Source: Lautropia mirabilis
GTDB lineage: Bacteria; Pseudomonadota; Gammaproteobacteria; Burkholderiales; Burkholderiaceae_E
DNA length: 64,000 bases
Assembly: GCF_900637555.1 (NCBI RefSeq)
Contig: NZ_LR134378.1
Span: forward strand, 1,932,001 to 1,996,000
Direction of reading: 5' to 3'
In this document: positions 3,071-40,852 of the stretch, piece after piece
How the letters are laid out: every line of letters starts with the position of its first letter
How positions within the stretch are numbered: position 1 is the stretch's first letter
The notes under the pieces: generated by a model
Database searches by the model: none
Seen by the model: the letters and a program-made list of their open reading frames with translations, nothing else
Told to the model about the DNA's origin: nothing
Translations under genes and position numbers: made by a program

Positions 3071-3958
3071 TCAGTAGGAAAACCGATGGATTCTGGCACG
3101 AAAGGGGGTGGGCGATGAAACCGTGACCAGTTCGGAACCCAGGTCGAAGGTGGTGGCGTACAGCGGTGGGCGTTCGCCCTCGGCGGTGGGCAGGCGCACG
3201 TCCGGGTAATGGATGAGGACCTGCGGAAGCTGGTGCGCTTCCGGGTGATCGGTGAGGAGCGCCGGTGGAATCGGGTGGGGGCCGTGGTATTCATGGCTGG
3301 AAAAATCACCGGGCTGGCGCGGTGAGGCGGGCTTGCGGACCGCCGTGGCCGGATCCAGCCGGTCGGGATGATGCCGCTGCAGGAAGGCAGTGAGTGTTTC
3401 CACGTCGGGCAGCTGGCTGTCCAGGGTGTTGAGCGACCCCATGCCGCTGATGCCCTCGCCCCAGGCCTTCAGCGTGGATTCCTTGCGGGTCCACATCAGC
3501 AGGAAGGCCAGTTCGCGCAGGCTATCGGGCATGGCCAGCAGCAGTTGGGCCTCATGGGGGCGGGTGACGCGATGGACCAGCGAATCCAGCATCTTTACCT
3601 CGCGCCCCAGTACCTCCAGATCAATGCCCAGTTCCTGCGGCCCCAGGGCCACCCAGGCGACGTGTTCGCTGTGGGTCAGGTTGAAGTGCAGGGGGCTTTG
3701 ATGCGCCGGATCCAGGCTGGGCTTGCCTCTTGGGCTGCGCACGAAACGCACGTCGGCGGGCGAGACATGCAGCTGGCGTGCCAGCAGGGCGCGCAGGCCG
3801 GCACGGGTGGCGCGGTAGCGTCGTTGCAGGTGCTCGAAACGGAAGCGCTCGGCACGGGCGTGTTCGGACGCGGCGATCCAGTGTTCGGATTCGGGAGGAC
3901 GGGGCGCATCGAGATCGATGCGCCAGCAATCGACGACAGGAAGGTTCGCGTCCGGCAT
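3071..3958 (-). CDS. 4'-phosphopantetheinyl transferase, Sfp/EntD superfamily
   Basis: A 295-residue Sfp-type transferase that moves phosphopantetheine from CoA to the serine of carrier domains. Visible motifs: GKPSL near 79, FNLTHSEHVAWVAL near 92 (CoA/phosphate contact), the magnesium-binding GIDLE at 111-115 and WTRKESTLKAWGEGI at 156-170. Family members are about 225-250 residues; the extra length is a C-terminal extension of uncertain value. It lies near the assembly-line genes, which carry four PCP/ACP domains, with two more carrier proteins at 37-41 kb, so it is the natural activating enzyme for both loci. Confidence 0.9.
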   Translation of the reverse strand: MPDANLPVVDCWRIDLDAPRPPESEHWIAASEHARAERFRFEHLQRRYRATRAGLRALLARQLHVSPADVRFVRSPRGKPSLDPAHQSPLHFNLTHSEHVAWVALGPQELGIDLEVLGREVKMLDSLVHRVTRPHEAQLLLAMPDSLRELAFLLMWTRKESTLKAWGEGISGMGSLNTLDSQLPDVETLTAFLQRHHPDRLDPATAVRKPASPRQPGDFSSHEYHGPHPIPPALLTDHPEAHQLPQVLIHYPDVRLPTAEGERPPLYATTFDLGSELVTVSSPTPFRARIHRFSY

Positions 3959-4044: not shown

Positions 4045-4566
4045 CTATTTTGCGGCGGCCTTGATGCGCAGGATCTCGCGCACGAAGTCGTTCATGCGTC
4101 GGGCGAAGGCGGGGTCATCCAGCCAGCCGATGAGGGCAAAGGTGTCGGGCTTGCCACCGTCGTCGGCTTCGACGCACTCGCCCTGGTAATGCTGGAAGAA
4201 GATGGCCTTGCCGCCACGGATCTTGCCCCGATGCAGCACGGCGATGCGGCCGTTTTCATCCTGGGCGAAGACACCGGAAATGGCACGGCTGATGCCCTGG
4301 ACGGGAAAGTTGATTTCTGCGGCCAGCGAGACTTTCTTGCCGGCCACCGGGGCGTCGGTACCGAAGCCGTTGAAGTGCTTGGTGTCCTGCGACTGGCCGG
4401 CGAACCAGAGGCCCAGCGTGTCGTCGTAGGCCACGTCGGCCTCGAAGCCGCCGCCGGCACCGCCGACGGTACAGGCAACGCGCTGGGGCAGCGCGGTCTG
4501 CAGCTGATGGACGAGGGTTCTCTGGGCGTTGTTGATGTCGGCGGCGCTGCTGATGACGGTCAACAT
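4045..4566 (-). CDS. Conserved hypothetical protein, about 173 aa
   Basis: I do not recognise this protein. It is soluble, with no signal peptide or membrane span, and has a moderately acidic, mixed alpha/beta composition. Notable pieces are FEADVAYDDTLGLWF, VLHRGKIRGGKAIFFQHYQG and a C-terminal helix DPAFARRMNDFVREILRIK. I placed the start at the ATG at 4566 because CAGGAGAC lies nine bases upstream of it; the first ATG of the frame (4608) has no ribosome binding site. It sits between the terminator of the NRPS genes and the phosphopantetheinyl transferase gene, so it probably begins a new transcript. Confidence 0.6.
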   Translation of the reverse strand: MLTVISSAADINNAQRTLVHQLQTALPQRVACTVGGAGGGFEADVAYDDTLGLWFAGQSQDTKHFNGFGTDAPVAGKKVSLAAEINFPVQGISRAISGVFAQDENGRIAVLHRGKIRGGKAIFFQHYQGECVEADDGGKPDTFALIGWLDDPAFARRMNDFVREILRIKAAAK

Positions 4567-4718
4567 GTCGTTCGGGTCTCCTGGTGGATACGGGATGGTG
4601 GATGTCATCTTAGTCGATGATGGGCATGCATCGGCCCGGCTGGTCTTCGGGCTGCGGGTTCCTGATCATCGGTAACGTGCGGTCGTCGGCGCCATCACCC
4701 GGCCTTCAGTGCTCCCCA

Positions 4719-4798: not shown

Positions 4799-7700
4799 TC
4801 AGTGCCGCTTGCGCAGGCCGCCCAGCATGCGGGCCATCAGGCCGCCTTTCTTGCCGGCGGTGTCCGCCTCGGGCGCGGGGCCGGATTGGGCCTCTTCATA
4901 CGCGTGGGCCACCTGGGCCAGCGTCTCGAAGACGAAGCGGCGCGGGTTGACGCGACGGCCGGTGAGCACCTCCATGCGGGCGATGGCCTGCATCACCAGC
5001 ATCGAGTGGCCGCCCAGGTCGAAGAAGTTGTCATCGGACCGGATGTCATCGGTGCCCAGCAGGTCGGCCCAGACGCCGGTCAGCGTGGCTTCCATCGAAC
5101 CCGCCTCTTCGGCGGGCAGAGGCGCTTCGGCCGTGGCCGCACCATCTGCGGCGGCATCCGGGGACGGGGCAGCCTGGGTCTGCACGCTGCTACCTTGCTC
5201 GGTGGCAGATGCCGCAGCGGTCGCAGGCATGGTTGCCGGCGTGTTGGCGGCTGCCGAGGCCTGGGCAGCCGCGATCACTTCACGAGCGGCTGCGTGCCCG
5301 GTACCGATCCCTTCCCGGACCGGCGCGGCTCCTGAGGGGGCCGTGCGGGTCGCCTTCTCGATGCCGATCTCTTCACCGAAGCCGGGCTGGTGCACCGGTG
5401 CGGCCGACGAAGGCTGGGGGGCAGCGGCCCGGGACGTGGTCGTCGGCGTGGACGGCAGGGTGGTGACCGGATGGTCGACCCCACAGAGCACGGCCGTCGG
5501 AATATGCGTGAGCATGTCCGCCAGCGGGGTGTCGGGCGTGCTGTCCAGCCAGCAGGTCAGCAGTAGCTGGTAGGCCTCGGCGATCCGGCGCACTCGCAGT
5601 GCGTCGAAGATGTCGGTGTTGTACTGCAGGCCGCCCACCAGGTGGTTGCCATTGGCCAGGAACCACAGTCCCAGGTCCTCGGCGGTGCCCGGTTGCAGCA
5701 CGTACAGCGGCTTGTCGTGCAGGTTGCCCCACTGCAGCTGGCGTGCCGTGGCTTCCTGGAACGAGAAGAAGGCCTGCCAGAGCGGGGGACGGGACTCGTC
5801 ACGGGACGGGCCCATGGCCTGCAGGATGCGGTCGGCCGGCACATCACTGTTGCCGAAGGCGGTCACGACGGTCTGGCGGACCTGTTCGAGCAGTTGGCGG
5901 ATGGTGCGCGGAGCGTGCTCGCGGGCACCGGCGCCAGCCGCCATGCCGGCAGGCGTGGCGCTATCCGGGCTGGCGTGGGCCCCTGCATGGGACGAGGCCT
6001 GATCGTTGCCGAAGTGGAAGGTGAGCGGCAGGGCGTTGACGAAGAAGCCCATCACCTGCTCCAGCTCGGGCAGCTCACGGCCACGCACGGGGGTGCCGAT
6101 GCGCAGCGTGGGCTGGCGCGACAGGCCGTGCAGCAGCAGGGCCCAGACGGCCAGCAGCGTCATGAACGGGGTGGTGTGCTGCTGGCGGGCGTGCTCGCGC
6201 AGCCGGGCCACCAGGGGCTCGGGCAGGTACAGCCATTCAGTGCTGCCCAGGCCGCTCATGCGGGCCGGGCGCTTGCGGTCGGCCGGAACGTCCAGAGGCG
6301 GCAGTTTCGGATCGATGATCGACAGCCAGTGGTCGACCTGTTTCTGCAGCGTGTCGCTCTTCAGGAACTGGTGGTGCCAGCCGGCAAAATCGCCGTAATC
6401 GATGGCCAGCGGCGGCAGCGGATCGGCTGCGCCGGGTTTCTCCATCTGGTGTGCATACAGGGCCGCCATTTCCTGATACAGCAGGTCGAAGGACCAGCCG
6501 TCCCAGATGATGTGGTGCGGCATGAAGAACCAGACGTGCTGCTCTTCGCCCAGCCGGAACATGCGGGTGCGGAAAAGCGGTGCGCCGTGCAGCGGAATCG
6601 GTTCCTGAGCCAGCGAATCGATGGCATGACGCAGGGCCGCTTCCTGGGCCTGGCCCTGCAGCTTGCTCAGGTCCATCGCCGGGAAGAGCGAGACCTGCAG
6701 GTTGTCCATCACGCGCTGCTCGGGCATGCCCTGGGCATCGGTGTCGATGACGGTGCGCAGGATCGGCTGGCGCTGCATCAGCTGGTTGAATGCACGCTGG
6801 AAGGCGTATTCATTCAGCTTGCCGGTGAGACGGTGGGCCGACGGTGTGTTGTAGACCGGGGTGCCGGGGTTGATCGACTCCAGGAAGTACAGCCGCTGCT
6901 GCATCAGCGACAGCGGCGCGACACTGCGGTCAGCGCGACGGGTGATGGTGTCGGCCGGCTCGGCAGCGGGCACGTGGCTGGCGGCGGGGGCAGCAGGCTG
7001 CTCGGTGGCCTGAGCGGAAGGCTGCCCTTCGCCCCCCTCCAGCCAGGCAGCCAGCTGCAGTGGTGTCGGGGCCTCGAACAGCGCCGCCAGCGGAAGCTTG
7101 CGGCCCAGCTCACGGCCCAGCGCCTGCAGCAGCTGGGCGGCCAGCAGCGAATGACCACCCACGGCGAAGAAGTCGTCGTCGTCGGACACTTCGGGCAGGC
7201 GCAGGTATTCGGCCATCAGCGCGCGTACGCGGGGCAGCAGCGTGGGCGCCGAGGCAGCAGCCTGTGCGGGCGAGCTGGTCGGCGCGGGCGCCGCGGAGGC
7301 TGCGGCGATCGTGGCAGCAGCCGCTTCGCCTGCCGTTGCCGGGGGCGTGCTGGCAGCGGGTGCGCTGGCACCGGGGCGGGCGGCCGGTTCGGACGAACGC
7401 GGTGCTGCATTCCGGGCGCTGGCGGATGGCTGGGGCATGACGGTGCTGGCATGCCGGTTGGGAATGCTGCGGGCCAGCTGGTCAGGCCGGGGCAGGGCCT
7501 TGCGGTCGATCTTGCCGTTGGGCAGCAGCGTGAAGGTGGGCAGCCAGACGAAGTGTTGCGGCACCATGTAGTCGGGCAGCTGCTTGCGCAGGTGGCTGCG
7601 AAGGGCGCTGGCTTCTTCACGGTTGGCTTCGCGCGGGGCGGCCTCGGGATCGTCGGACACCATGTAGGCGACCAGGCGCTGATCGCCGGGCACGTCCTCG

Positions 7701-10504
7701 CGCACGATGGTGACGACCTGGGTGATGCCCTCGAAGGTGGACAGTACCGATTCGATCTCGCCCAGTTCGATGCGGTAGCCGCGCACCTTCACTTGGTGGT
7801 CCAGACGTCCCAGGTGCTCCAGCGTGCCGTCGTGGTGCCACCGGCCGCTGTCGCCGGTGCGGTAGGCACGACGTCCGACGACATGTGCAGATTGATTCTG
7901 TTCCGAATGATTCTTGATGAAATCATCCGGAATGAACCGATCTTCGGTGAGTTCAGGGCGGTTCAGGTAGCCCAGCGCCACACCTTCGCCGGCAATGACG
8001 ATCTCGCCGGCTGCGCCCACCGGCACCTCCTGGCCATGGGCGTCCACGATGTGGATGCGGGTGTTGTCGATGGGGCCGCCGATGCGGATGTACGACGGCT
8101 GCGGCGGAACCTGCCAGCAGGTGGACCAGACGGTGGTCTCGGTCGGGCCATACATGTTCCACAACGTGAGTGGCAGCGCGGTGAGGTCGCGTGCCAGGTC
8201 CAGCGGCAGCGGTTCGCCACCCACCAGGGCACGGAAGCCTTCGGTCGGTTGCCAGTCAGCGGCCAGCAGCAGGCGCCAGGTGCCCGGAGTGGCCTGCATG
8301 ACGGTGATGTTCCATTGCTGCAGGCGCTCGGCCAGGCGATGGCCGTCGCCGGTGTCGTCGCGGTCGGCCACGTAGACGGTCCCACCGGCGATCAGCGGGG
8401 TGATGAGCTCCAGCAGCGCGATGTCGAAGGACAGCGTGGTGACGGCCAGCAGCCGGTCGCTGGCGCGGATGCCGGGTTTGCGCTGCATGGACAGCAGCAG
8501 GTTGGCGGCAGCGCGATGCGGCACGGCCACGCCCTTGGGCTTGCCGGTGGAGCCGGAGGTGTAGATGACGTAGGCGGCTGCTTCGGGGCGGGACAGGTCC
8601 AGGCGCTTCTCGATCTCGCCGCTGGCGGGCAGATCCTGGACCAGCTCGTCGGCCGAGATGGTCAGTGTGCGCTCGGCCGGCCAGTTGAACTGCTGACAGA
8701 CCTCGACGGTCTCGGCATCGGCCAGGACGAGGGCCAGGCCGGCGTCTTCGGCCATGTAGGACAGGCGATCCTGCGGGAAGTGCGGATCAAGCGGCACGTA
8801 GGCGGCACCGGTACGCCAGACGGCCCACTGGGCCACCACCATGGCCACGCCACGGGTCAGGCACAGGCCGACGCGACTGTCGGGGCCGACACCGTATTCC
8901 TGCAGGCGCAGGGCCAGCTGGTGGCTGGCATCCAGCAGGGCACGGTAGCTGAGCTGATGGCGGGCATCGACCAGAGCGGTCTTCCGGGGCTGGGTGATGC
9001 CGATGCGGTCGAGCAGGGCCACCGGGGTGCGGCCCAGACCCTGTTCGTGTTCCGTCCGGTTCCAGCGGGCCAGCAGTGCCTGCTGCTCGGCATCCAGCGC
9101 GGGCAGGTGGCCGACGGGGCGCTGCGGGTTCTGTGCGATGCCGGCCAGCAGGGCGGCGTAGCTCTGCAGCCACTGCTGGATGCTGGCATCGTCGAAGAGC
9201 GCGGTGCTGTACTGGCATTCGATGCGCAGGCCGGTGTCCAGCGGGGTGAGGTTGAAGAACAGCTCGAAGTTCTCGAAGCGACGGGCCACCGGGTGAATGG
9301 TGGTGTCGAAGCCGGGCAGTGCGGTGAGCGCCGGATCCAGTCGCTGGTCGAGGTTGAACATCACCGACACGAGCGGCAGCCGGGACGGATCGCGCCGCAG
9401 TGCCAGGTGACGCAGCAGGGTGCCGAAGGTGAAGCGCTGGTGGTCGAAGGCATCGAGCAGTTCACGCTGCACGCCGGCCAGCCAGTCGGCGGCAGTGGCT
9501 TCGGTATCGATGCGGCCACGCACGGGCAGCAGGTTGACGCAGTGGCCGACGATGTCGGGCAGCTCGGCCGCCATCTGGCCGGCGGCGGGCACGCCCACCA
9601 CCACATCGGGGCTGCTGGTCAGGCGCGACATCAGCAGTTCGAAGCCGCCCAGCAGCAGCGAGAACAGGCTGATGCGCAGGCTGCGGGCTGCCTGCTGCAG
9701 GCGCTCGAAGTCGGCGGCCGGGATGAGGTGGTCGATGCGGTTGGCCGCGACCTGGCGACGGGCAGGGCGCGAGTGGTCGGTGGGCAGATCGGTGACGGGG
9801 ACGTCCTTGGCGTAGCGGCCGGTCCAGAAATGCACGTTGGCGCCGGCTTCGGCGCTTTGGGCAAAGCGGGCTTCGTCGGCGGCGTAGTCGGCGTAGGCGG
9901 ATGACGCCAGGGGTTCGCCTCGCATGGCGCGCGCCAGGTCACGCAGCACGATGCCGAAGGAGTAGCCATCGCAGACCAGGTGATGGGCGGCCAGCAGCAG
10001 CACGCCATGCTGGTCGGTCAGACGCAGCAGGTGAGCGCGAAAGAGCGGGCCTTTGCCCAGGTCGAAGGGGGCGGTGACCACCTGCTGGCGCCAGTCGGTC
10101 AAGCGCCGGTTGCGGGTGGATTCGTCCTGCATGCGCAGATCCACCACATCGAAGACGAGCGGAGCTGCGTCGGCGGGTTGCACCAGCATTTCGGAGCCGT
10201 CGTCGCTGAAGACGGCGCGCAGGGCCTGATGGGCCTGGTGCACGGCCTGGCAGGCGCCCTGAAGACGGGTGACGGCAGCATCGTCGAGCGGGCCGCGCAG
10301 GTCCAGCTCGACGGCTTCGTTGTAGGCCAGTGAGGCTTCGCGGCCCAGATGATCGGCCAGCCAGACCTCGCGCTGGGCATCGGTGGGCGTGATGACCTGT
10401 TCGATGGCTGCGGCAGCAGGGTCGGCCGCGAAGGGGTCGAAATCCACCGCCACGCCCACCAGGCCGGCGGGCAGCGGGTGTGAGGGGTTGGATTCGTGGC
10501 TCAT
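4799..10504 (-). CDS. Non-ribosomal peptide synthetase, C-A(Gly)-PCP-C-PCP
   Basis: 1901 residues. Domains in order: condensation domain (about 35-480; active site HHLVCDG near 173), adenylation domain (about 490-1000; YVIYTSGSTGKPKG near 643), carrier domain (FFAVGGHSL, Ser near 1116), second condensation domain (about 1185-1650; HHIIWDG near 1330) and a terminal carrier domain (FFDLGGHSM, Ser near 1830). Reading the Stachelhaus positions by hand against GrsA gives D-I-L-Q-L-G-M-V-W-(K), which is glycine-type. Two Ala/Pro/Ser-rich linkers flank the second C domain. There is no thioesterase, reductase or third A domain, so the last PCP must be loaded and unloaded in trans. The gene is 98 bases downstream of the hybrid PKS gene and follows it in one operon. 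Confidence 0.93.
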   Translation of the reverse strand: MSHESNPSHPLPAGLVGVAVDFDPFAADPAAAAIEQVITPTDAQREVWLADHLGREASLAYNEAVELDLRGPLDDAAVTRLQGACQAVHQAHQALRAVFSDDGSEMLVQPADAAPLVFDVVDLRMQDESTRNRRLTDWRQQVVTAPFDLGKGPLFRAHLLRLTDQHGVLLLAAHHLVCDGYSFGIVLRDLARAMRGEPLASSAYADYAADEARFAQSAEAGANVHFWTGRYAKDVPVTDLPTDHSRPARRQVAANRIDHLIPAADFERLQQAARSLRISLFSLLLGGFELLMSRLTSSPDVVVGVPAAGQMAAELPDIVGHCVNLLPVRGRIDTEATAADWLAGVQRELLDAFDHQRFTFGTLLRHLALRRDPSRLPLVSVMFNLDQRLDPALTALPGFDTTIHPVARRFENFELFFNLTPLDTGLRIECQYSTALFDDASIQQWLQSYAALLAGIAQNPQRPVGHLPALDAEQQALLARWNRTEHEQGLGRTPVALLDRIGITQPRKTALVDARHQLSYRALLDASHQLALRLQEYGVGPDSRVGLCLTRGVAMVVAQWAVWRTGAAYVPLDPHFPQDRLSYMAEDAGLALVLADAETVEVCQQFNWPAERTLTISADELVQDLPASGEIEKRLDLSRPEAAAYVIYTSGSTGKPKGVAVPHRAAANLLLSMQRKPGIRASDRLLAVTTLSFDIALLELITPLIAGGTVYVADRDDTGDGHRLAERLQQWNITVMQATPGTWRLLLAADWQPTEGFRALVGGEPLPLDLARDLTALPLTLWNMYGPTETTVWSTCWQVPPQPSYIRIGGPIDNTRIHIVDAHGQEVPVGAAGEIVIAGEGVALGYLNRPELTEDRFIPDDFIKNHSEQNQSAHVVGRRAYRTGDSGRWHHDGTLEHLGRLDHQVKVRGYRIELGEIESVLSTFEGITQVVTIVREDVPGDQRLVAYMVSDDPEAAPREANREEASALRSHLRKQLPDYMVPQHFVWLPTFTLLPNGKIDRKALPRPDQLARSIPNRHASTVMPQPSASARNAAPRSSEPAARPGASAPAASTPPATAGEAAAATIAAASAAPAPTSSPAQAAASAPTLLPRVRALMAEYLRLPEVSDDDDFFAVGGHSLLAAQLLQALGRELGRKLPLAALFEAPTPLQLAAWLEGGEGQPSAQATEQPAAPAASHVPAAEPADTITRRADRSVAPLSLMQQRLYFLESINPGTPVYNTPSAHRLTGKLNEYAFQRAFNQLMQRQPILRTVIDTDAQGMPEQRVMDNLQVSLFPAMDLSKLQGQAQEAALRHAIDSLAQEPIPLHGAPLFRTRMFRLGEEQHVWFFMPHHIIWDGWSFDLLYQEMAALYAHQMEKPGAADPLPPLAIDYGDFAGWHHQFLKSDTLQKQVDHWLSIIDPKLPPLDVPADRKRPARMSGLGSTEWLYLPEPLVARLREHARQQHTTPFMTLLAVWALLLHGLSRQPTLRIGTPVRGRELPELEQVMGFFVNALPLTFHFGNDQASSHAGAHASPDSATPAGMAAGAGAREHAPRTIRQLLEQVRQTVVTAFGNSDVPADRILQAMGPSRDESRPPLWQAFFSFQEATARQLQWGNLHDKPLYVLQPGTAEDLGLWFLANGNHLVGGLQYNTDIFDALRVRRIAEAYQLLLTCWLDSTPDTPLADMLTHIPTAVLCGVDHPVTTLPSTPTTTSRAAAPQPSSAAPVHQPGFGEEIGIEKATRTAPSGAAPVREGIGTGHAAAREVIAAAQASAAANTPATMPATAAASATEQGSSVQTQAAPSPDAAADGAATAEAPLPAEEAGSMEATLTGVWADLLGTDDIRSDDNFFDLGGHSMLVMQAIARMEVLTGRRVNPRRFVFETLAQVAHAYEEAQSGPAPEADTAGKKGGLMARMLGGLRKRH

Positions 10505-10602: not shown

Positions 10603-13600
10603 TCAGACGCTGGTCTTCAGTTGCATGTAGCTGCCGGGCCGGTCGGGGTCCGCGATGAACCAGGCGGCCTTGCCCTGGGCGTCACGCCCCAGGCGGGCAC
10701 CGGGTACCGGCGGCTTGGTGGGGTCGAAGCTGGCAGACGCGTCGGCGGCATTCTGCACGGGTTTGCCGGGCAGGAAACCGTCGGCCTGCAGTTCCAGCAC
10801 CGACTCGCAGAAGGCCTTGCGGATGGCTTCGACATCGGCCTCGCTGTGCGCCGTGGTCATGAAGCAAGGGAAGTTGTCGAGGATGTGGATGCCGCGGCTG
10901 CGCATCATGGCAAACAGCAGGTCCTGGTACGGGTGATCTTCGGTGAAGACGATCCGCCAGACCGAGGCGAAGTGCTTGACTGCGATGGGCGCACCGTGCT
11001 CCTGGCAGAAGGCGTTGAGCGAATCGGCCAGTTGTGTGGTGGTCTCGGTGAGCTTGCGTTGCAGCTCGGGACCCGCTTCCTTCAGGTACGAGAGCACGGC
11101 GTGGCAGGCGGCCAGCGCCAGCGGGTGCCGCACGAAGGTACCGGCGAAGTAGGTGACGCCGACGGTGGGGATCGAGTCGTCGCCATACTGCCAGGCGCCG
11201 CCATCCAGGGCATCCATGTACTGGCGCTTGCCGGCGATGATGCCGATGGGGAAGCCGCCGCCGATCACCTTGCCGTAGCTGGCCAGGTCGGCGCGCACGT
11301 CGAAGTGGGCCTGGGCGCCGCCGGGGCCGGTGCGGAAGCCGGTGACCACCTCGTCGAAGATCAGCAGGGAGCCGGATTCAGCGGTGATGCGGCGCAGCTC
11401 GTGCAGGAACTCGCGCGGCTGCAGGTCGGGGCGACGGCTCTGCACGGGCTCGACCAGCACGGCGGCCAGGTTGTCGGCGTTGTCACGTACCCATTGCAGG
11501 GCGTCAGGCTCGCCATATTCGAGGATGACGACGTTGGCGGCGGTGTTGGGCATGATGCCGGGGGCGGCTGGCATGGCACGACCCCGGGCGCCCAGACGCA
11601 CGATCACTTCGTCGAAGATGCCGTGGTAGGAACCGGCGAAGACGGCGATGCGCTCGCGGCCGGTGACGGTGCGGGCGATGCGCACGGTACCCATGACGGC
11701 CTCGGAGCCGGTGTTGCAGAGTGCGGCGCGATCGAAGCCGGTCATTTCACAGACCAGTTCGGTGACGGGACCGGCCAGCGGGTGCTGCGGGCCGATCTCG
11801 TAGCCGAGGTCCAGCTGGCGACGCACGGCGTCGAGCACGAAGTCGGGCTGCCAGCCGAACAGGCTCATGCCGAAGCCGTTCAGGGCATCGACGTACTCAT
11901 TGCCGTCCAGATCCCACAGGTGCGAGCCCTTGGAGCGCTCGATGACGATCTGGTAGATCATCTCCTTCAGGCGCGGGCGGAAGCCGTTGACGACGCGCGG
12001 GTCGGCCGAGTGCGGGCGATGCTTCTGCGTGTAGTCGCGCGAGGCGCGGGTGCGGTCGACGTAGCGCTTGATGAAGGCATCGAGCCGGGCTTCCTGGCGC
12101 GGGGTGAGTGCGTCGTGCTGCTGGCGGTAGATGCGGGCGATGGCGCCGAAGGCACGTTTCGGATCGTCGGTGGGACGCTCGTCGGCGTCAGCACTGCTCG
12201 GGGTGGGGCTGGATGAAGCGGCCACGGCCGGGACGGCGGACGCCTGGGCTGGCGCAGCGGCGACCGGCGCATCGGTGGCGTTGATGACGGCCTGGGCGGA
12301 TGCTGCCATGGCGGGCTGGCCGGTCAGCAGGCGCAGCTGGTTTTCCATCAGCTGCAGCTGCTGGCTGAGCAGGTACGAGACGCTGTCGACGGCGCCTGCC
12401 GGGGCGACCGGGGCCAGCAGCGGGGCCTGGGCGGGCATGCTCGGCATGGTCGGCTGCAGGGCCGTCGGTGCGGCCGCGGCAGGAAGCTGAGGGGCCGCGG
12501 CGACGGTGCTGTCCGCGGCGGGGGCGGCCACGGCGGCGTCGGCCGGCAGGATGCCGTCCAGGTGCTGGACGACGGCATTGGGGCTGGGCAGGTCGGTCAT
12601 CAGCTGGCGGAAGCTGATGGGCGCGTTGAAGTGGCGCTTGATCTGCAGGGCCAGCTGGGTGAGCAGCAGGGAGTCCAGTCCCAGGTCGACGAAGGCGCTG
12701 TCGCGGTCCTCGGGGCCGACGGTGATTCCGCAGACTTCATCAATGGTATCGGCCAGTTCCTGATGCAATCTCGCTTGGCGATCGTTCGTGCTCATGGTGT
12801 TCGTGTGCTGCTTGAGAGGGGTCGGGTTTTCTGAAAGGGATGGGACGGCCGTCGCAGCCTGGGGGGAGGCGGCACAGACCGTGGCAGGAGGGATGGCAGC
12901 GTCCGGGGCTGCATGTCGGGCCGGATCCGCTGTCTGCCGTGTTGCGGCCTTCACCGATTGACCGGCATGCGCCTGCAGGGCAGCACGCAGGGCGCCGATG
13001 GCGGCTTCAGCAGCGGAGATCAGGCCCTGATGGTCAGTGCTGGCCACGGATGCGGCCACCGGCACGGAAGACGGTGCCAGCGGCTGGTCCCCGGCGACGG
13101 GATGCGCCGGACGGGCCGGAAGCGTGTTCGTCGCGGTGGGGGCCGTGCTGGCAGACGGCGCGGCGGCCAGAGGCACTGTGCGGGCCTGTGCACCGCAGGT
13201 GGCGTATGCGGCAGGCGGGATGTGGGCGGCCCGCCCGTCCGCGGCCGGTGCATCCAGCCAGTAGCGCTTGCCCTCGAAGGGGTAGGTGGGCAGCGGGACG
13301 CGGCGGCCCTGGGCCGGGGCGAGGCTGGCCGCCGGCAGGCGATCCAGACACCACAGCCGGGCATGGGCGCGGGCAAGCGACCTCACCTCGTCATCAGCCG
13401 ACTCCAGGCTGGCGACGCAGGCTGGCGCCTTCCTGGCGGGTGCGGCACGGCGCACCAGGTTGACCAGAATGCGGCCGGGACCGACTTCCAGGAAAGTGCT
13501 CTCGGGGCTTTCGGCCAGGACATGCTGCACGGCATCGGCAAATCGCACGGTGTCGCGCAGCTGCGCAGCCCACCAGTGCGGGTCGGTGGCTTCGGCATCG

Positions 13601-16600
13601 GTCAGCGGTCGGCCGGTCCGGCCCGAGACGATGGGGATGGTCGGGGCCGACAGGCTTACCCGGGACACGGCCCGCTCGAAGGGCGAGACGGCCGGCTCCA
13701 TCATGGCCGAATGGAAGGCGTGCGAGGTCTTCAGCCGCTGGTTGGCGATGCCTTCGGCTTCCAGCTGCCGTGCCAGCGCTTCAATGGCGGCTTCGGGGCC
13801 GGCTACCACGCAGGCTTCGGGCGCATTGATGGTGGCGATCGACAGCTCCGAAGGCAGTCGCGGCGCGACCTCGGCAGCGGGTTGGCGTACGGCCAGCATG
13901 GCACCGGCCGGCAAGGCCTGAATGAGCTGGCCACGCAGGGCAACCAGCCGGGCAGCATCGGCCACCGGCATCACGCCCGCAATGACGGCGGCCGTGAATT
14001 CGCCCAGGCTGTGACCCACCAGCAGGTCGGGCAAAAGCCCCTGGTGCTGCCACCAGCGGGCCAGTGCGTATTCGATGGCAAAGAGGGCCGGCTGGGTCAA
14101 CGCCGTCTGGGCCAGGTCGGCCTCACTGCCGTGAAAGACGAGGGCACGCAGGTCGGCACCGCTGTGGCGCGTCGGGTTCTGAGGGGCTGCGCCGGATGCG
14201 GCCGGATGTCCGCCGGGGGTATGGTCGTCCGGACGTGTGTGTCCGTTGTTCGGCAGGCCGCTGTTCTCGGCGGACTGGATGAGCGTGTTCAGCCACGGAT
14301 GGCCGTTGGCTCCGGGCAGGGGGCCGATGGCCTCGGCCACTTCATCGAACGCGCGGGCAAAGACGGGCTCCTGCTCGTAGAGCTGACGCCCCATGGCAGC
14401 GTACTGGGCGCCCTGACCCGGGAAGAGCCAGACCAGAGGGCCTTGGGCGGCTGCCGTTGCATGGATGTGGTCGGGGGCGCTGTCGTTTTCCAGCGCGGCG
14501 ATGGCCTCGTCCAGTGTTCGGGCCAGCACGCACTGGCGATGCGGCAGCGGACTGCGGCCGTGGGCCAGCGTGAAGGAGATGTCGCTCAGGTTGGCAAGCG
14601 CCGTCGACAGGAACGGGTCTGCGTCCTGGCCGGCGCGTGTCGCGCTCTTGTCTGCAGGATCGTCAGCCGCATCCGTCCGGGCTTGCGCTGCCTGAAGCCG
14701 GTGCAGGTGCTCGGCCAGCTGGCGACGCTGGGTGGCCAGGGCCGTGGGGGTGCGTGCGCTGAGCGGAAGGAAGGCGAGCGCTGCATCCGCGGTATGGGCG
14801 GACGGGGCGGCAGCTGCCTGCACGGTACCGGTTGCAGGGGCACCGAGCGCCAGGTCGGCCGGCGCTTCCTCGATGATGATGTGGGCGTTGGTGCCGCCCA
14901 CGCCGAAGGCGCTGATGGCCGCACGCCGCGGCGTGCCGGGGGTGGCCGGCCATGGCGTGGCCTCGGCGGTGACCCGGAACGGGCTCTGTTCCAGCTGCAG
15001 GCCGGGGTTGGGCTTCCTGAAGTGCAGGGTGCCGGGGACGAGGTTGTGCTGCAGGGCCATCACCGTCTTGATGGTGGCTGAAGCACCGGCGGCGATGACC
15101 GTGTGACCGATGTAGCTCTTGAGCGAGCTGAGCACGGCAAAGCCGGTGTCCTGGGTCTCTTCGCGCCAGGCACGGGTGAGGGCGCGCACTTCCACCGGGT
15201 CGCCCATGGGGGTGGCGGTACCGTGGGCCTCCACGACCTGGATGCTGCGGGCAGGCACGCCGGCGTCGTCCAGGGCGGCGCGGATGACGGCATGCTGGCC
15301 TTCCACGCTGACCGCGGTGAAGCTGGCCTTGTTGCCACCGTCGTTGTTGATGCCCACGCCGCGGATGACCGCGTATACGGTGTCGCCGTCGCGGCGGGCG
15401 TCAGCCAGGCGCTTGAGCAGCACCACGGCGGCACCGTCGGAGAACACCGTGCCCTGGGCATCGGCATCGAAGCTGCGGGTGAAGCCGTCAGGCGAAAGCA
15501 TCGAGCCGGCTTCGTGGCGGTAGCCGCTGTTGACCGGTGCGGTGACGGCAACGCCACCGGCCAGCGCCATCCGGCACTGACCGGCACGCAGCGCCTGCAC
15601 GGCCTGGACGATGGCCACCAGCGAGGTGGAGCAGGCGGTGTGCACCGAGACGGCGGGCCCCCGCAGGTCCAGCCGGTTGGCGGTGCGGGTGGCGATGTAG
15701 TCCTTCTCGTTGTCGAGCATCACCTGGAATTCGCCCAGGGCGGCGATCTTTTCCGGGTAGTGCTGCAGGTGACGCTGGAAGTAGGTGGCGTTGTACATGC
15801 CGGCGAAGACGCCGATCTGACGGTTGCCGTCGCGCGGGGCCTGGCCGCCCTGCTCAAGGCACTGCCAGGCCAGTTCCAGGAAGATGCGCTGCTGCGGATC
15901 CATCAGCTCGGCTTCGCGTGGGCCGATGCCGAAGAAGGCGGCATCAAAGCGCGCCGCGTCGTCGAGCACGCCGCGCGCCGCCACGTAGTCGGGGTCGCCG
16001 GTGAGGCTGGCGGGCAGGGAGGGGTCCAGCTCCTCGGGCCGGAAATGACGGATGCCGTCACGGCCGGCGATCAGGTTCTGCCAGAGTTCCTCGATGCTGG
16101 CGGCGCCCGGGAAGCGCCCGGCCATGCCGATGATGGCAATGGTGCGCTCGTCCTCGTCCGTCGGGGGCGCGACGTTCGCCTGGCCGGCAGGGGCAGCATG
16201 CGGGGCGCCGTCGTCCGTACCAGGGGCAGACTGGCTGTCCGGATGCGTTCCGGCAGGCGGGGTCGTCTCGGCCGGGGCCTGATGGGATGCGTGCCCGGGG
16301 CGGGCCGCAGCATCACCAGGTTGCAGGATGTGCTGCAGCTCGGCGGCCGGCACGCCTTCCGCGATGCGCGCGGCAAAGGCCGTCACCGTGGGGGTGCCGA
16401 AGAAGTCCTCAATGCCGATGGCCGGTCCGAAAGTCTGCTGCAGGGCTTCCAGGGCCTGGGCGGCCAGCAGGGACGATCCCCCCACCTCGAAGAAGTTGTC
16501 GTGGGCGCGCAGGCCCCGGATGGCCAGGATGGGTTCCAGCAGCGCGATGATGCGCTGTTCGAGCCGGCGCTTGAGCGCAGGGGTCAGGGCCTGGCTGCCG

Positions 16601-18969
16601 GTACCTGCCTGGCCATCAGGGCGAGGGGGCGTCTCGGTCGTGCGAGGTGTGCCGGATACAGGTTGTGGTGTCGATGACGCAGCGGATGCCGCGATCTCGC
16701 GTTTATTCTGGTTTGAATGTGCAAGATCTGTATCGATTCCGGTTACGTCACGGTCTGTAACCTCCGTGTCTTCTGTAAAACCTGTGTCGACAGAGTTTAC
16801 GGGTGTTGTGTCTTTGGTCTCCATGGCCTGCAGGGCGCGGCGGTCCAGCTTGCCGTTCAGTGTGATCGGCAGTTGTGGGACGGCCACGAAACGTGCGGGC
16901 ATCATGTAGATGGGCAGGCGCTGGCGGCAGTGGTCACGCAGGGCGTCGTCATCGGGCAATGTCTGGCCGGCGGCTGCCACCAGCCAGGCCACCAGGCGGC
17001 GCTCGCCATTGGGCGGGCACTCGTCGGTGATGGCAGCATTGGCCACGGCCGGATGGCTGGCCAGCACGGCCTCGATCTCGCCCGGCTCAATGCGAAAGCC
17101 CCGGATCTTGAGCTGGCCATCCAGCCGACCCAGGTACTCCAGGCGGCCATCGTCGAGCCAGCGCACGGCATCGCCGGTGCGGTAGAGCACGTCGTGAGGA
17201 CCACCGAACGGATCGGCAACAAAGCGTTCCTTCGTGAGATCCGGGCGGTTCAGGTAGCCCAGGGCCACGCCCGGGCCACCGATGTAGAGTTCGCCGGTCA
17301 GGCCGGGGGGAACGGCATCGCCCAGCGGGCTCAGCACGCGCACGTAGGTCCAGTTGATGGGGCGCCCCAGCGGCACGGAGGCGTGGCTGTCCAGATCGTG
17401 TTCGGACACCGGCCCCGTGACGGCGAAGGTGGTGGTCTCGGTGGGGCCGTAGCCGTTGATCAGCTGCAGCCCGGGCAGCGCCTGTAGTGCCCGGCGCACA
17501 TGACGGGGCGACAGCGCCTCACCGCCGGTCATCAGCGTGCGCAGACCCTGCAGGTGCAGCGGATCCTCGTCGACGATGCGGTTGAAGAGGGCAGCCGTCA
17601 GCCATGCGGTGTTGACCCGTTCGGTGCGGATGGTCTCGGCCAGGCCGCTACCGGAGGGGATGGCTTGCGGATGGACGACGCAGGTGCCGCCATTGAGCAG
17701 CGGGCCCCAGATCTCCAGCGTCGAGGCATCGAAGGCCAGCGGCGCTGCGTGCAGCATCACCACCTTCGGACCCAGCGGCGCGTAGTACTGGCGGTAGACC
17801 AGCCGGACGATGGCACGATGGGGGATGACCACCCCCTTGGGCGTGCCCGTGGAGCCGGAGGTGTACATCACGTACGCGGGTTGGCGTGCGGGGCTGCCGT
17901 ACCGGGCCAGTTCCTGCTCGGACAGCCGCTCCGACAGGCAGGGCACCGTGTCGAATCCCACGAGCGTGTCAGTGTCGTCGTGGTCGATGCCCTCGATGTC
18001 CAGCATCGGTATGCCGCGTGCCTTGGCCAGCGCCAGCTGATGGGGCTGGGTGTGCGAATCCACCAGCAGCAGCGTGGGCTGGCTGTCTTCCAGCATCAGC
18101 GACAGGCGCTGTTCCGGGCTGGCCGGGTCGATGGGTACATAGACGGCACCCAGGCGCAGGATGCCCAGCATCAGGGCGATGGCTTCGGGCCGGCGCGACA
18201 GCAGCATGGCCACGCGGTCGCCGGCCCCCACGTCCAGTGCCTGCAGGCGGGCAGCGTGGCGCAGCGAGATCTCGCGCAGGGTCTCGTAGCTCCAGGTGAC
18301 GCCGGGCGTGCCCGGCATGCGCACAGCCGTGGCATCGGGATGGCGTCGGCACTGCAGGTCGAAGCGCTCGATGACGGTGGCCTGCGGCAGGCGCGCGTCC
18401 CCGTCGGTGGGACCGGACCAGGTCTGCAGCACCAGCGGCCGGATGTTGGAGGCCAGATTGGAGAACTGGCGCAGCTGCTGGGGGCCCTGCAGCACCAGCT
18501 CGATCAGCAGGTGGCGCAGCAGTCGCCGCCAGCCATGCAGCGCCACGGCATCGTAGCGGCCGCTGGGTGAGCAGATGGTTACGTCTTCGCCGACAAAATG
18601 CAGCGAAATGTCAGCCTTTTTACGGGACGTCGACGATTCGGTATCGGGCGGGATGGCATCATGCCCAGCAGGCATGGCGTTCACGGCGTCGGTTTCGGCC
18701 GGCAACCTGGTCTGGTCGGCTTCCTCGACGAACAGCGCCAGCCCGGTCTCGCCTTCCCAGGTGTTGCGTCCGTTGTCCACGTGCTGGCGTGCAAGCGCCA
18801 GCAGGCTGGCGGTGTCGCCCAGTTCGCCGGGTAGCGTGCCGCCACCGATGCGGTGGTCAGCCAGCATCCAGGCGGCCAGCCAGGGTACAAGCTGGGGTTC
18901 GTCCTGCCGCCGGCGCGCTGCCAGGGCCGTGGTCAGATTGGCGGGAAGCTTGATCGAGATGGAAGCCAC
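10603..18969 (-). CDS. Hybrid NRPS/PKS with aminotransferase: A(Val-like)-PCP-KS-AT-ACP-AMT
   Basis: 2788 residues. The N-terminal 190 residues have no HHxxxDG condensation motif; their last part resembles a C-to-A linker. Then: adenylation domain (about 200-720; YVMYTSGSTGTPKG near 365), carrier domain (FFEVGGSS, Ser near 829), ketosynthase (about 940-1370; VHTACSTS Cys near 1110, EAHGTATP His, IGHT His), acyltransferase (about 1510-1810; GHSLGE near 1651 and HAFH near 1750, the malonyl-CoA type), carrier domain (DLGLDSLL, Ser near 2093) and a class III PLP aminotransferase like glutamate-1-semialdehyde aminomutase (about 2270-2720; Lys in SYGKVIGGGFP near 2566). No ketoreductase is seen. 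The hand-read A code D-A-L-W-M-G-G-T-F-(K) is close to valine codes. The start is a GTG without a clear ribosome binding site, so the true start could lie further in. Confidence 0.93.
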   Translation of the reverse strand: MASISIKLPANLTTALAARRRQDEPQLVPWLAAWMLADHRIGGGTLPGELGDTASLLALARQHVDNGRNTWEGETGLALFVEEADQTRLPAETDAVNAMPAGHDAIPPDTESSTSRKKADISLHFVGEDVTICSPSGRYDAVALHGWRRLLRHLLIELVLQGPQQLRQFSNLASNIRPLVLQTWSGPTDGDARLPQATVIERFDLQCRRHPDATAVRMPGTPGVTWSYETLREISLRHAARLQALDVGAGDRVAMLLSRRPEAIALMLGILRLGAVYVPIDPASPEQRLSLMLEDSQPTLLLVDSHTQPHQLALAKARGIPMLDIEGIDHDDTDTLVGFDTVPCLSERLSEQELARYGSPARQPAYVMYTSGSTGTPKGVVIPHRAIVRLVYRQYYAPLGPKVVMLHAAPLAFDASTLEIWGPLLNGGTCVVHPQAIPSGSGLAETIRTERVNTAWLTAALFNRIVDEDPLHLQGLRTLMTGGEALSPRHVRRALQALPGLQLINGYGPTETTTFAVTGPVSEHDLDSHASVPLGRPINWTYVRVLSPLGDAVPPGLTGELYIGGPGVALGYLNRPDLTKERFVADPFGGPHDVLYRTGDAVRWLDDGRLEYLGRLDGQLKIRGFRIEPGEIEAVLASHPAVANAAITDECPPNGERRLVAWLVAAAGQTLPDDDALRDHCRQRLPIYMMPARFVAVPQLPITLNGKLDRRALQAMETKDTTPVNSVDTGFTEDTEVTDRDVTGIDTDLAHSNQNKREIAASAASSTPQPVSGTPRTTETPPRPDGQAGTGSQALTPALKRRLEQRIIALLEPILAIRGLRAHDNFFEVGGSSLLAAQALEALQQTFGPAIGIEDFFGTPTVTAFAARIAEGVPAAELQHILQPGDAAARPGHASHQAPAETTPPAGTHPDSQSAPGTDDGAPHAAPAGQANVAPPTDEDERTIAIIGMAGRFPGAASIEELWQNLIAGRDGIRHFRPEELDPSLPASLTGDPDYVAARGVLDDAARFDAAFFGIGPREAELMDPQQRIFLELAWQCLEQGGQAPRDGNRQIGVFAGMYNATYFQRHLQHYPEKIAALGEFQVMLDNEKDYIATRTANRLDLRGPAVSVHTACSTSLVAIVQAVQALRAGQCRMALAGGVAVTAPVNSGYRHEAGSMLSPDGFTRSFDADAQGTVFSDGAAVVLLKRLADARRDGDTVYAVIRGVGINNDGGNKASFTAVSVEGQHAVIRAALDDAGVPARSIQVVEAHGTATPMGDPVEVRALTRAWREETQDTGFAVLSSLKSYIGHTVIAAGASATIKTVMALQHNLVPGTLHFRKPNPGLQLEQSPFRVTAEATPWPATPGTPRRAAISAFGVGGTNAHIIIEEAPADLALGAPATGTVQAAAAPSAHTADAALAFLPLSARTPTALATQRRQLAEHLHRLQAAQARTDAADDPADKSATRAGQDADPFLSTALANLSDISFTLAHGRSPLPHRQCVLARTLDEAIAALENDSAPDHIHATAAAQGPLVWLFPGQGAQYAAMGRQLYEQEPVFARAFDEVAEAIGPLPGANGHPWLNTLIQSAENSGLPNNGHTRPDDHTPGGHPAASGAAPQNPTRHSGADLRALVFHGSEADLAQTALTQPALFAIEYALARWWQHQGLLPDLLVGHSLGEFTAAVIAGVMPVADAARLVALRGQLIQALPAGAMLAVRQPAAEVAPRLPSELSIATINAPEACVVAGPEAAIEALARQLEAEGIANQRLKTSHAFHSAMMEPAVSPFERAVSRVSLSAPTIPIVSGRTGRPLTDAEATDPHWWAAQLRDTVRFADAVQHVLAESPESTFLEVGPGRILVNLVRRAAPARKAPACVASLESADDEVRSLARAHARLWCLDRLPAASLAPAQGRRVPLPTYPFEGKRYWLDAPAADGRAAHIPPAAYATCGAQARTVPLAAAPSASTAPTATNTLPARPAHPVAGDQPLAPSSVPVAASVASTDHQGLISAAEAAIGALRAALQAHAGQSVKAATRQTADPARHAAPDAAIPPATVCAASPQAATAVPSLSENPTPLKQHTNTMSTNDRQARLHQELADTIDEVCGITVGPEDRDSAFVDLGLDSLLLTQLALQIKRHFNAPISFRQLMTDLPSPNAVVQHLDGILPADAAVAAPAADSTVAAAPQLPAAAAPTALQPTMPSMPAQAPLLAPVAPAGAVDSVSYLLSQQLQLMENQLRLLTGQPAMAASAQAVINATDAPVAAAPAQASAVPAVAASSSPTPSSADADERPTDDPKRAFGAIARIYRQQHDALTPRQEARLDAFIKRYVDRTRASRDYTQKHRPHSADPRVVNGFRPRLKEMIYQIVIERSKGSHLWDLDGNEYVDALNGFGMSLFGWQPDFVLDAVRRQLDLGYEIGPQHPLAGPVTELVCEMTGFDRAALCNTGSEAVMGTVRIARTVTGRERIAVFAGSYHGIFDEVIVRLGARGRAMPAAPGIMPNTAANVVILEYGEPDALQWVRDNADNLAAVLVEPVQSRRPDLQPREFLHELRRITAESGSLLIFDEVVTGFRTGPGGAQAHFDVRADLASYGKVIGGGFPIGIIAGKRQYMDALDGGAWQYGDDSIPTVGVTYFAGTFVRHPLALAACHAVLSYLKEAGPELQRKLTETTTQLADSLNAFCQEHGAPIAVKHFASVWRIVFTEDHPYQDLLFAMMRSRGIHILDNFPCFMTTAHSEADVEAIRKAFCESVLELQADGFLPGKPVQNAADASASFDPTKPPVPGARLGRDAQGKAAWFIADPDRPGSYMQLKTSV

Positions 18970-19220
18970 AGCTGCGAGAATCCGGTTGGATGAGAAAGAT
19001 GCCGGATGGTTTCAGTCCTCCCGTGAGGGTAGGTGATTCATTCCAACAAGCAATCTATAGACGCATGATCGGTTTTGAACATGGGGCCAGTGGCAGGTGG
19101 CGTGTTTTCCGCGACGCATCGACCGATGCGACGGGAGCGCAGCCTGCCCGACCCGCCAATGCTAGCGTGACTGTTCAGAGTCGCCCATCTGAACGTTTGT
19201 CACATATTTTCAGTAAAACA

Positions 19221-20393
19221 ATGCTGAGGGTGTTGCTTCTGGGCATCGGTACTGGTATGAGCCTGGCCGCCTGCACGCCCGACAGCGATCCGCCGGCGGC
19301 TGCGAATCGCGGCCACGTCGACACCCATCCTGGTGGCGTGGCCACCGACAGCAGGAGCCCGGACCACATGTCTTCCTTCAATGGCGGAGAGCCGACCAGC
19401 CCGAAACTGCGACTGGCCGTCCTGGGGGACTCCGACAGTCATTCCTTCCATGATGCGGTTTCGCTGCACTACGGCACGCCCGAGGCGCGCGGTGGGGCGC
19501 AGCAGGCCAGCACCTGGCAATGGACCGAGATCCTCGGGAGGCTGCGTCCCCGTGACATCGATCAGGGGCCTTTCGGTGAGGTGGGCAGCAGCGGGGCTGG
19601 CGCCTGGCTGCGGCGCAACGTGATGGGCAGCCTGGTGCGGCAGCACAAGGAAGACTTCCGCTACAACTTCGCCTTCAGTGGCGCCACCTGCGGTGCACTC
19701 AACAACCCCACCTTCGGGCAGGTGCCTGGCCTGCTGGCCGAGATGGCCCGTGATCCGCAAGGCTGGAAGGACGTGCCATCGGTGGTGCTGATCCGTATCG
19801 GCATCAATAGCCTGGGCAAGCGCGAGGACCTGCAGGCCTTTGCGAAGACAGGGGCGGATGCTGACAATCTGGCCCGGGTGCAGGCCTGTGCTGACCAGGT
19901 GGCCCAGGCCGTGTCCGCGCTGAAGGCCCGCGATCCGGCGCTGGACATCATCCTGGTGGGGATCCTGAACAACGTCGACTGGCCACCGCTGCACGCCAGC
20001 TTCCGCAACGCGCAGGAGCAGACGAACATCGCCGCCGTGCTCGATGCCTACGACCAGCGCCTGCGCCAGATCGCCGAGAGCACGAAGGGCGTTCATTTCT
20101 TCGATGACCGCGCCTTCTTCCGGCACTGGTTCGGTGCGCGTGATGCCCAGGGCCAACCGGCCTACAAGCAGGTGAAGCTGCTGGGCAAGCGCGAGGTGAG
20201 CGTCACGCAGGGCGATGAGCCCTGGAATGCCGTCATCGGCGATGGCCATGCCGGAACGGTCTGGAACGGTCTGTGGGCTGCCGCGATGGTGAACGAGTTC
20301 AACCGCATCAAGGGTCTGGACATCCCGCCGATCCAGCCGGTGGAAATTGCGCGCGCCGCTGATCCGGACGGGCGCTTCGGCCTGTCCGAGTGA
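19221..20393 (+). CDS. SGNH/GDSL-hydrolase-like lipoprotein
   Basis: 390 residues from the ATG at 19221, where a lipoprotein signal begins: hydrophobic stretch then LAAC with Cys18. The open frame extends 77 codons upstream, but that part looks non-coding. After a Pro/Asp-rich spacer comes block I, LAVLGDSDSHSF (Ser near 71), an IRIGIN segment resembling block III, and near the C-terminus GDGHAGTVWNGLWA resembling the Asp-His block V. These features suggest an esterase or acyl hydrolase anchored in the outer or inner membrane; the substrate is unknown. The gene is divergent from the PKS gene and has no other obvious partner. Confidence 0.68.
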   Translation: MLRVLLLGIGTGMSLAACTPDSDPPAAANRGHVDTHPGGVATDSRSPDHMSSFNGGEPTSPKLRLAVLGDSDSHSFHDAVSLHYGTPEARGGAQQASTWQWTEILGRLRPRDIDQGPFGEVGSSGAGAWLRRNVMGSLVRQHKEDFRYNFAFSGATCGALNNPTFGQVPGLLAEMARDPQGWKDVPSVVLIRIGINSLGKREDLQAFAKTGADADNLARVQACADQVAQAVSALKARDPALDIILVGILNNVDWPPLHASFRNAQEQTNIAAVLDAYDQRLRQIAESTKGVHFFDDRAFFRHWFGARDAQGQPAYKQVKLLGKREVSVTQGDEPWNAVIGDGHAGTVWNGLWAAAMVNEFNRIKGLDIPPIQPVEIARAADPDGRFGLSE

Positions 20394-24336: not shown

Positions 24337-24413
24337 GCGCCCGTAGCTCAGTTGGATAGAGTACTTGGCTACGAACCAAGGGGTCGTGGGTTCGAATCCT
24401 GCCGGGCGCGCCA
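24337..24413 (+). tRNA. tRNA-Arg (anticodon ACG), copy 1
   Basis: A 77-base tRNA including the encoded CCA. Acceptor stem GCGCCCG pairs with CGGGCGC; the D arm is AGCTCAGTTGGATAGAGT; the anticodon stem-loop is CTTGG-CTACGAA-CCAAG with anticodon ACG; the T arm has GGTTCGAATCC. After A-to-I editing it would read CGU, CGC and CGA. Confidence 0.98.
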
Positions 24414-24420
24414 CCCATTC

Positions 24421-24457
24421 AAGGGCCTGAATTCAAAGCGAATTCAGGCCCTTTTTC
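24421..24457 (+). terminator. Rho-independent terminator, tRNA copy 1
   Basis: A perfect 14-bp stem (AAGGGCCTGAATTC with GAATTCAGGCCCTT) with a 5-base loop, followed by TTTCTTT, eight bases after the tRNA CCA. Confidence 0.92.
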
Positions 24458-24566
24458 TTTGCCCTCAGGCTGGACGCACGAAGCCCTCCCGGGAAAGGGC
24501 GTGCTTGGGCAGAAATGCCCCGACCCCGTGGGGCCCGGGCGCTCTCTGTCGGCTCTTGTCTGCGGA

Positions 24567-24716
24567 TCAGTCCGGGCTGCTGCCCAGGAAGCGCCGCATC
24601 AGGTCGGCCATGGTGCGGACCTCGAACTTGTCCATGATGTTGGCGCGGTGCGCCTCTACCGTCTTGATGCGGATGTTCAGGTCGCCGGCAATCTGCCTGT
24701 CCAGGCGGCCGGCCGC
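24567..24716 (-). pseudogene. 3' fragment of the FixJ-type response regulator gene
   Basis: About 50 codons identical in arrangement to the end of the intact regulator at 24974: the last part of the LuxR-type DNA-binding domain up to the stop codon. Relative to the intact copy there are two silent and three missense changes (Ser to Arg, Asn to Asp, Lys to Arg). It has no start or receiver domain and ends abruptly at the duplication junction, so it cannot make a working regulator. Confidence 0.9.
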
Positions 24717-24743
24717 GACTCATGGTATTATGCGTTCCGCGTC

Positions 24744-24820
24744 GCGCCCGTAGCTCAGTTGGATAGAGTACTTGGCTACGAACCAAGGGGTCGTGGGTTC
24801 GAATCCTGCCGGGCGCGCCA
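24744..24820 (+). tRNA. tRNA-Arg (anticodon ACG), copy 2
   Basis: Identical to copy 1 over all 77 bases. TATTAT is retained at 24726-24731, but the base sequence where a -35 should be is the end of the regulator fragment and does not resemble TTGACA. A terminator stands between the two tRNA genes, so expression of this copy may be weak. Confidence 0.97.
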
Positions 24821-40767: not shown

Positions 40768-40852
40768 GAGGAGGGCTCGTTCCAGCAGGGCAGCCGTCAG
40801 GGGTCTGCGGCGAAGAGGAAAGGCACAAGGCGGGACAGTGAATCGGGGGGCG

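Follow-up and report, generated by a model that had tools for sequence, protein, structure and literature searches.

Two neighbouring genes of Lautropia mirabilis, found within a stretch of 64,000 nucleotides (the window), would form a single NRPS/PKS assembly line for a vicinal-diamino acyl-glycine that serves exopolysaccharide formation in place of the AMP-ligase TIGR03098. We put the chances of this reading at about even. Judged from sequence, what appears new is the link to polysaccharide loci together with the exchange of the ligase; the architecture was already known, and the chemistry is plausible.

Domain organization of the two synthase genes

The first gene (gene 1, Table 1) is a single open frame of 2,788 aa with a GTG start. 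Its A, KS and AT domains, the carrier at residues 2071-2137 together with a second carrier stretch, and Aminotran_3 all score above the Pfam cut-offs, with the A domain covered by AMP-binding (residues 203-573) and its C-terminal domain (631-707). The order A-PCP-KS-AT-ACP-AMT given in the initial annotation is confirmed by these matches and by the active-site motifs of the KS, AT, PCP, ACP and AMT, all of which are intact, and the KS-AT-ACP-AMT part lies within one protein. No KR, DH, ER, C or TE was matched in gene 1 (Pfam, E <= 1e-3), in line with the earlier statement that a ketoreductase is missing; the only further matches at this threshold were KS-linker models and Thiolase_N, the latter below its cut-off. 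The KR was also absent from all five AMT-bearing relatives scanned with Pfam. Both motifs described before in the AT (GHSLGE and HAFH) are present, a pair that we take to indicate the malonyl type. That the first ~200 residues might be a cut C domain was ruled out by a C-domain profile score of -2.8.

Table 1. Features of the cluster and its immediate flanks, in positions of the window.
Feature	Position	Strand	Basis or remark
4'-phosphopantetheinyl transferase	3071..3958	-	one of two PF01648 matches in the genome
187-aa protein without Pfam or NCBIfam match	4045..4608	-	relative in 1 of 7 other genus genomes with flanks examined
Gene 2	4799..10504	-	1901 aa, C-A-PCP-C-PCP, both HHxxxDG motifs intact
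Gene 2, second C domain, then PCP without an A domain of its own	5501..6922	-	profile
Gene 2, A domain, code DIL(Q)LGMVW(K), Gly-like	7511..8992	-	Pfam and code
Gene 1	10603..18969	-	2788 aa, A-PCP-KS-AT-ACP-AMT
Gene 1, AMT, GSA/mycosubtilin-type aminotransferase, PLP Lys2567	10888..11955	-	Aminotran_3, aa 2339-2694
Gene 1, ACP, Ser2100	12559..12759	-	Pfam, aa 2071-2137
Gene 1, AT, GHSLGE (1652) and HAFH (1750)	13438..14433	-	Pfam, aa 1513-1844
Gene 1, KS, Cys1113, His1249, His1289	15019..16146	-	Pfam, aa 942-1317
Gene 1, PCP, phosphopantetheine Ser833	16366..16572 (limits approximate)	-	motif
Gene 1, A domain, code DALWMGGTF(K), Val-like	16849..18363	-	aa 203-707
SGNH/GDSL hydrolase, divergent	18990..20393	+	possible lipobox by eye

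The A domain of gene 1 matches the amino-acid adenylation family TIGR01733 with 397 bits (cut-off 317), and its Asp235 and Val-like code set it apart from the fatty-acyl-AMP-ligase starters. We have re-extracted the code DAL(W)MGGTF(K) by motif anchors (Trp278 and Lys517 were read by eye), and the Val-like call made previously stands: DALWMGGTF is printed as a valine specificity in a passage of PMC3943440, and a passage of PMC12283262 gives DALWIGGTFK as one of the most frequent codes for the Leu/Ile/Val set. Substrate calls from A-domain codes can be wrong.

The kinship of the AMT to mycosubtilin, already pointed out, is well founded. The best PDB match is the mycosubtilin AMT (E 3e-131), making the 6KFM family the closest solved structure, and Lys2567 lies within SYGKVIGGG, which aligns with the same motif in 6KFM. 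Like gene 1, the mycosubtilin synthetase MycA (iturin family; AMT structures 6KFM, 6KFR and 6KFU) has an ACP-AMT in a PKS module and keeps the PLP motif. A dead active site was looked for in the AMT of the window, and the motif of the PLP lysine was found intact in the alignment to 6KFM. Dead domains do occur in assembly lines, and an AMT inactive on this substrate would leave a 4-amino-3-oxo, tetramic-acid-like product; we regard this outcome as very improbable, as the PLP lysine is invariant in all 12 aligned AMTs (the window's included) and the AMT is better conserved within the genus than the rest of the protein. Eight of the nine genus genomes, that of the window among them, contain the AMT, at 85-90% identity in the other seven, against about 61-67% for the rest of gene 1. 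The ninth genome, where no AMT match was found, is 81% complete and in 720 contigs.

The code of the gene 2 A domain is near DILQLGMIWK, reported for Gly-activating domains in a passage of PMC12283262. At the position of the last C-PCP, five loci of relatives (L038, L040, L045, L046 and L090) do have an A domain, with a Gly-like code in all four whose code is readable, so a second glycine loaded in trans would be the first guess for gene 2. A TE was not found in gene 2 by profile search, and release would therefore come from a hydrolase acting in trans. The missing TE is also what could be expected if, after the AMT has acted, the vicinal amines cyclised on or off the line to a lactam, a diazepine-like ring or a pyrazine-type compound released without a TE, since the thioester would be open to attack by a nearby free amine. 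However, in many relatives that share this domain order the line ends in a TE or has hydrolases after it, and we think such a cyclisation improbable.

The surroundings of the two genes are stable within the genus: in all seven other genomes with flanks examined the SGNH hydrolase adjoins the cluster, with SGNH, AstE-like and DHDPS-like genes on one side and the phosphopantetheinyl transferase and CbiO on the other. Downstream of this transferase lies a CbiO/CbiQ transporter pair (presumably of an import-type family), which is the only transporter among the nine proteins scanned in the flanks (1136-24010); neither a TE nor a receptor was found among these nine. Four AMT assembly lines (L041, L042, L086 and L090; from Ideonella, an uncultured bacterium, Caballeronia and Aquabacterium) likewise have a relative of the SGNH hydrolase in their vicinity. 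Farther out, two tRNA-Arg(ACG) genes (24337-24820) with starts 407 bases apart are each followed by a near-identical ORF start, which suggests a tandem duplication. A siderophore-like locus (35757-46066) starts ~17 kb from the cluster and comprises a C-A-PCP-TE NRPS (36640-40767), an AMP-ligase, a periplasmic binding protein, an ABC ATPase, a FecCD permease and a nitroreductase. The code residues of this NRPS at 322/330/331 are L, V and D, which we take to be Ser-like. The genome (3.17 Mb, one contig) contains three C domains in all.

Relatives of the assembly line and their starters

A tblastn search of plasmid records with gene 1 matched 3,685 of them, with no single place covering 80% of the query; the best rows, covered at 70-77%, came from Variovorax, Spirosoma, Aliiroseovarius, Rhizobium and Rhodobacter. 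We have also scanned genomes with 12 AMTs as queries and taken the best 80 of 581 loci, for which the domain models were built from the relatives themselves. In Proteobacteria and Bacteroidota the relatives have A-T-KS-AT-T-AMT, after which comes C-A-T-C-T, C-A-T-C-A-T or C-A-T-TE, and related split arrangements are found in Cyanobacteriota and Rhizobiales. An AMT 69% identical to that of the window was found in one more genome of the family (G013). Two of the plasmid relatives, in Spirosoma pSLIN02 (L006) and Variovorax RA8 plasmid 3 (L016), have genes for a multicopper oxidase, a copper ATPase or a cupredoxin close by. Another genome of the genus contains, at G001:C1:1048898-1080666, frames of great length, one of them 7,312 aa, in which several AMP-ligase-like domains occur and which presumably encode NRPS.

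To place the different starters, 97 AMTs were put into one tree (quick IQ-TREE, SH-aLRT support only). An amino-acid A domain precedes 54 of these AMTs and a FAAL-like or cut ligase 11, while 32 gave no reading, either because a KS but no A was in the piece (9) or because the ORF had no KS (23: contig-cut pieces, four Lautropia loci split between sequence stretches, trans AMTs and six stand-alone enzymes). The AMT of the window falls in a clade of 68 rows (SH-aLRT 99) with 53 amino-acid-primed members, 13 without reading and two FAAL-like calls (L063 and L066) based on A-domain pieces 34 and 46 residues long, in frames that start at a contig end; the sampling is tilted towards this clade, since the query was itself a member. 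Outside of it lie a separate clade of eight rows (SH-aLRT 100), in which two Bacteroidota rows join six FAAL-like-primed Bacillota AMTs, and three more FAAL-like-primed AMTs (L074, L089 and L102). The earlier statement that such AMTs use fatty acyl chains as substrates thus fits only a part of the family, the clade of the window being mostly amino-acid-primed. Bacillota MycA-type loci also differ from the window in having the AT in a separate frame, whereas gene 1 has an amino-acid A-PCP and the AT in cis.

With 54 of 97 AMTs following an amino-acid A domain, and with the plasmid and genome relatives, the placement after an amino-acid starter can no longer be called rare or unusual, as the initial annotation had it. 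Nor is it novel, for the same order (A-CP-KS-AT-CP-PLP1) was tabulated in 2013 for Pedobacter heparinus C6XWU5, and as a core with C-A-CP on either side for Salinisphaera F7QBN5, in a table of PMC3870968. The products given for both in this part of the source are antiSMASH predictions only ('Nrp-Mal-Gly-Pk' and 'Gly-Mal-Nrp'). The three Pedobacter loci that we have compared differ from the window in having C-A-T-TE and a DVQ-type starter code, against C-A-T-C-T. The flavipulchrin synthase of Pseudoalteromonas, as described in a part of PMC12819058, resembles the window in the malonate extension, the transamination by an AMT to a 3-amino acyl unit and the glycine that follows; it differs in its starting unit, a fatty acid brought in by a starter C domain, and in its product, a cyclic lipopeptide. 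No characterised product of the amino-acid-primed order A-PCP-KS-AT-ACP-AMT was met in the open-licence literature searched, which likewise yielded nothing usable on vicinal diamines in nonribosomal peptides or on biosynthetic gene clusters of Lautropia mirabilis, and nothing on guadinomine/aminostatine.

Polysaccharide genes and the exchange of the ligase

The domains, motifs, phylogeny, gene neighbourhoods and the exchange between ligase and NRPS described in this work are direct observations. Markers were searched for in all loci with the genes flanking annotated plasmid relatives as queries, the strict set consisting of Wza, Wzc, Wzx, a sugar transferase or the hydrolase. Among the 60 loci of the clade outside Lautropia, 34 had a polysaccharide marker in the wide sense and 25 in the strict one, the hydrolase pair being present in 14, while 26 showed no marker within the flank examined. 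None of the 23 other AMT loci had one (20 with NRPS/PKS domains in the piece and three without), although the contrast of 34/60 with 0/23 is somewhat inflated, as less flanking sequence remains beside long lipopeptide synthases and on short contigs. Six stand-alone AMT loci were also free of polysaccharide markers. Without the four loci that supplied the queries, 30 of 56 retained a marker (p about 1e-6). This location of many relatives among polysaccharide genes suggests a role in building the outer slime.

The hydrolases next to these NRPS resemble the families 'hydrolase 2' and 'hydrolase 1, exosortase A system-associated' (TIGR03101 and TIGR03100), with scores below the cut-offs, and in Lysobacter (L040) a glycosyltransferase near the NRPS scores over the cut-off of the XrtA family TIGR03013. 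Of 32 genomes with AMT loci, 15 gave an exosortase match, so the exosortase is not itself a constant partner.

A reading of the window itself as an EPS locus was ruled out, no polysaccharide marker being present in the flanks of the cluster. An XrtA-type EPS locus does exist in the same genome (G000), at C1:503400-534683, 1.4 Mb from the NRPS. It contains export, chain-length and glycosyltransferase genes over cut-off (TIGR03027, TIGR03007 and TIGR03013), matches below cut-off to TIGR03018, TIGR03015 and TIGR03108, and an adjacent pair of hydrolases 1 and 2 (530027-531812, minus strand) that score 87 and 80 bits, below the cut-offs of 168 and 203. A second hydrolase pair is found near 355.5-357.4 kb. 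As in the exosortase-A (XrtA) system, an AMP-forming activating enzyme coexists with a hydrolase pair; the differences are the NRPS/PKS instead of TIGR03098, a hydrolase 2 of another clade and the exosortase, for which a profile search gave no match anywhere in this genome.

We have built a tree with 70 rows of both hydrolases, leaving out six duplicate loci (L121, L122, L123, L125, L156 and L162). The hydrolase 2 of Lautropia (eight rows from four genomes) groups with 10 of the 16 NRPS-adjacent ones (SH-aLRT 93), the remaining six (Lysobacter and others) lying outside its clade. The canonical hydrolase 2 makes a group of its own (12 rows, SH-aLRT 99, four of the rows below the TIGR03101 cut-off). 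The canonical hydrolase 1 is also a separate group (10 rows, support 96), and the fork joining the Lautropia hydrolase 1 to the NRPS-adjacent ones has a support of 30, with long branches in two rows.

The state of hydrolase 2 coincides with that of the ligase. Hydrolase 2 was sought in twenty genomes, selected without knowledge of their ligase state, and is present in 17 (all except G037, G083 and G164), giving 18 for the comparison with the window's own; AMT-positive G270, G289 and G329 fall outside this comparison. The exosortase-A AMP-ligase TIGR03098 is over its cut-off in all 12 genomes with the canonical hydrolase 2 and in none of the six with the NRPS-type (G000, G001, G002, G006, G013 and G315), with a Fisher p of 5e-5, or 0.006 at one genome per genus, the NRPS-type coming from three genera only. 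In the genome of the window, the A domains of the cluster are the only TIGR03098 matches at E <= 1e-60 (226 and 220 bits, cut-off 592), and likewise in G002 only the two A domains of its cluster match at this level. The best match of G315 is intermediate (398 bits), and two genomes (G269 and G076) combine a distant AMT with the canonical ligase. TIGR03098 was not found in G037 and G083. Across 300 genomes of the order, TIGR03007 is present in 7 of 10 with the AMT and in 80 of 290 without it (p 0.008); when the four Lautropia are left out the count is 3 of 6, which is not significant (p 0.22).

A polysaccharide marker adjoins the NRPS in none of the eight Lautropia loci, and this favours a different interpretation, namely that the product is a free diffusible small peptide (an aminostatine-type protease inhibitor, a metallophore or an antibiotic) and that the polysaccharide neighbourhoods are shared genomic islands only. 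Vicinal diamines bind metals well and aminostatine mimics a transition state; the proximity of copper-handling genes in the Spirosoma and Variovorax relatives and of the siderophore-like locus in the window go in the same direction. On the other hand, no TE or receptor, and only a transporter pair presumably of import type, was found in the flanks, and the ligase exchange and the hydrolase phylogeny would both have to be coincidence. A free peptide is in our view a serious contender, although its probability falls short of even.

As to previous descriptions of such systems, there is no mention of a hydrolase, a ligase, a decarboxylase or an acyl carrier in PMC1569441, and the open-licence literature offered nothing usable linking exosortase, NRPS and polysaccharide.

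Predicted product and biological meaning

The substrates, the beta-amination, the product and its attachment to polysaccharide we infer from sequence, as follows. The A domain of gene 1 would load an aliphatic amino acid, most likely valine, onto the PCP (via Val-AMP), and the KS-AT-ACP would add one malonate unit from malonyl-CoA. The AMT would then transaminate the unreduced beta-keto group at C3 to give a 3,4-diamino-5-methylhexanoyl (aminostatine-like) thioester; in MycA the amino donor is glutamine, according to a passage of PMC3870968. Gene 2 would next join glycine to the diamino acyl unit, and its last C-PCP may add a second unit (perhaps glycine from the same A domain) or serve the release. 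The product would finally enter the XrtA-type exopolysaccharide pathway as an aminoacyl unit, replacing the product of the TIGR03098 ligase of related genomes with canonical hydrolases 1 and 2.

A wider version of this proposal, which we advance tentatively and with less than even confidence, is that amino-acid-primed beta-aminating NRPS/PKS lines are widespread makers of vicinal-diamino peptide caps for exopolysaccharides and have replaced the XrtA-type AMP-ligase in several lineages, Lautropia among them despite the gap of 1.4 Mb. The product would then be a decoration of the surface or slime and not a free natural product.

Aminostatine-type vicinal diamines would be of interest as protease-inhibitor or metal-binding motifs. 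If the proposal is true, it would provide a function for the hybrid synthases seen in Pseudomonadota, Bacteroidota, Cyanobacteriota and Planctomycetota, among others, and would name the aminoacyl-donor step that the ligase and hydrolase genes of the exosortase-A system may perform. It would also connect assembly-line biosynthesis with biofilm polysaccharide in a way that can be tested.
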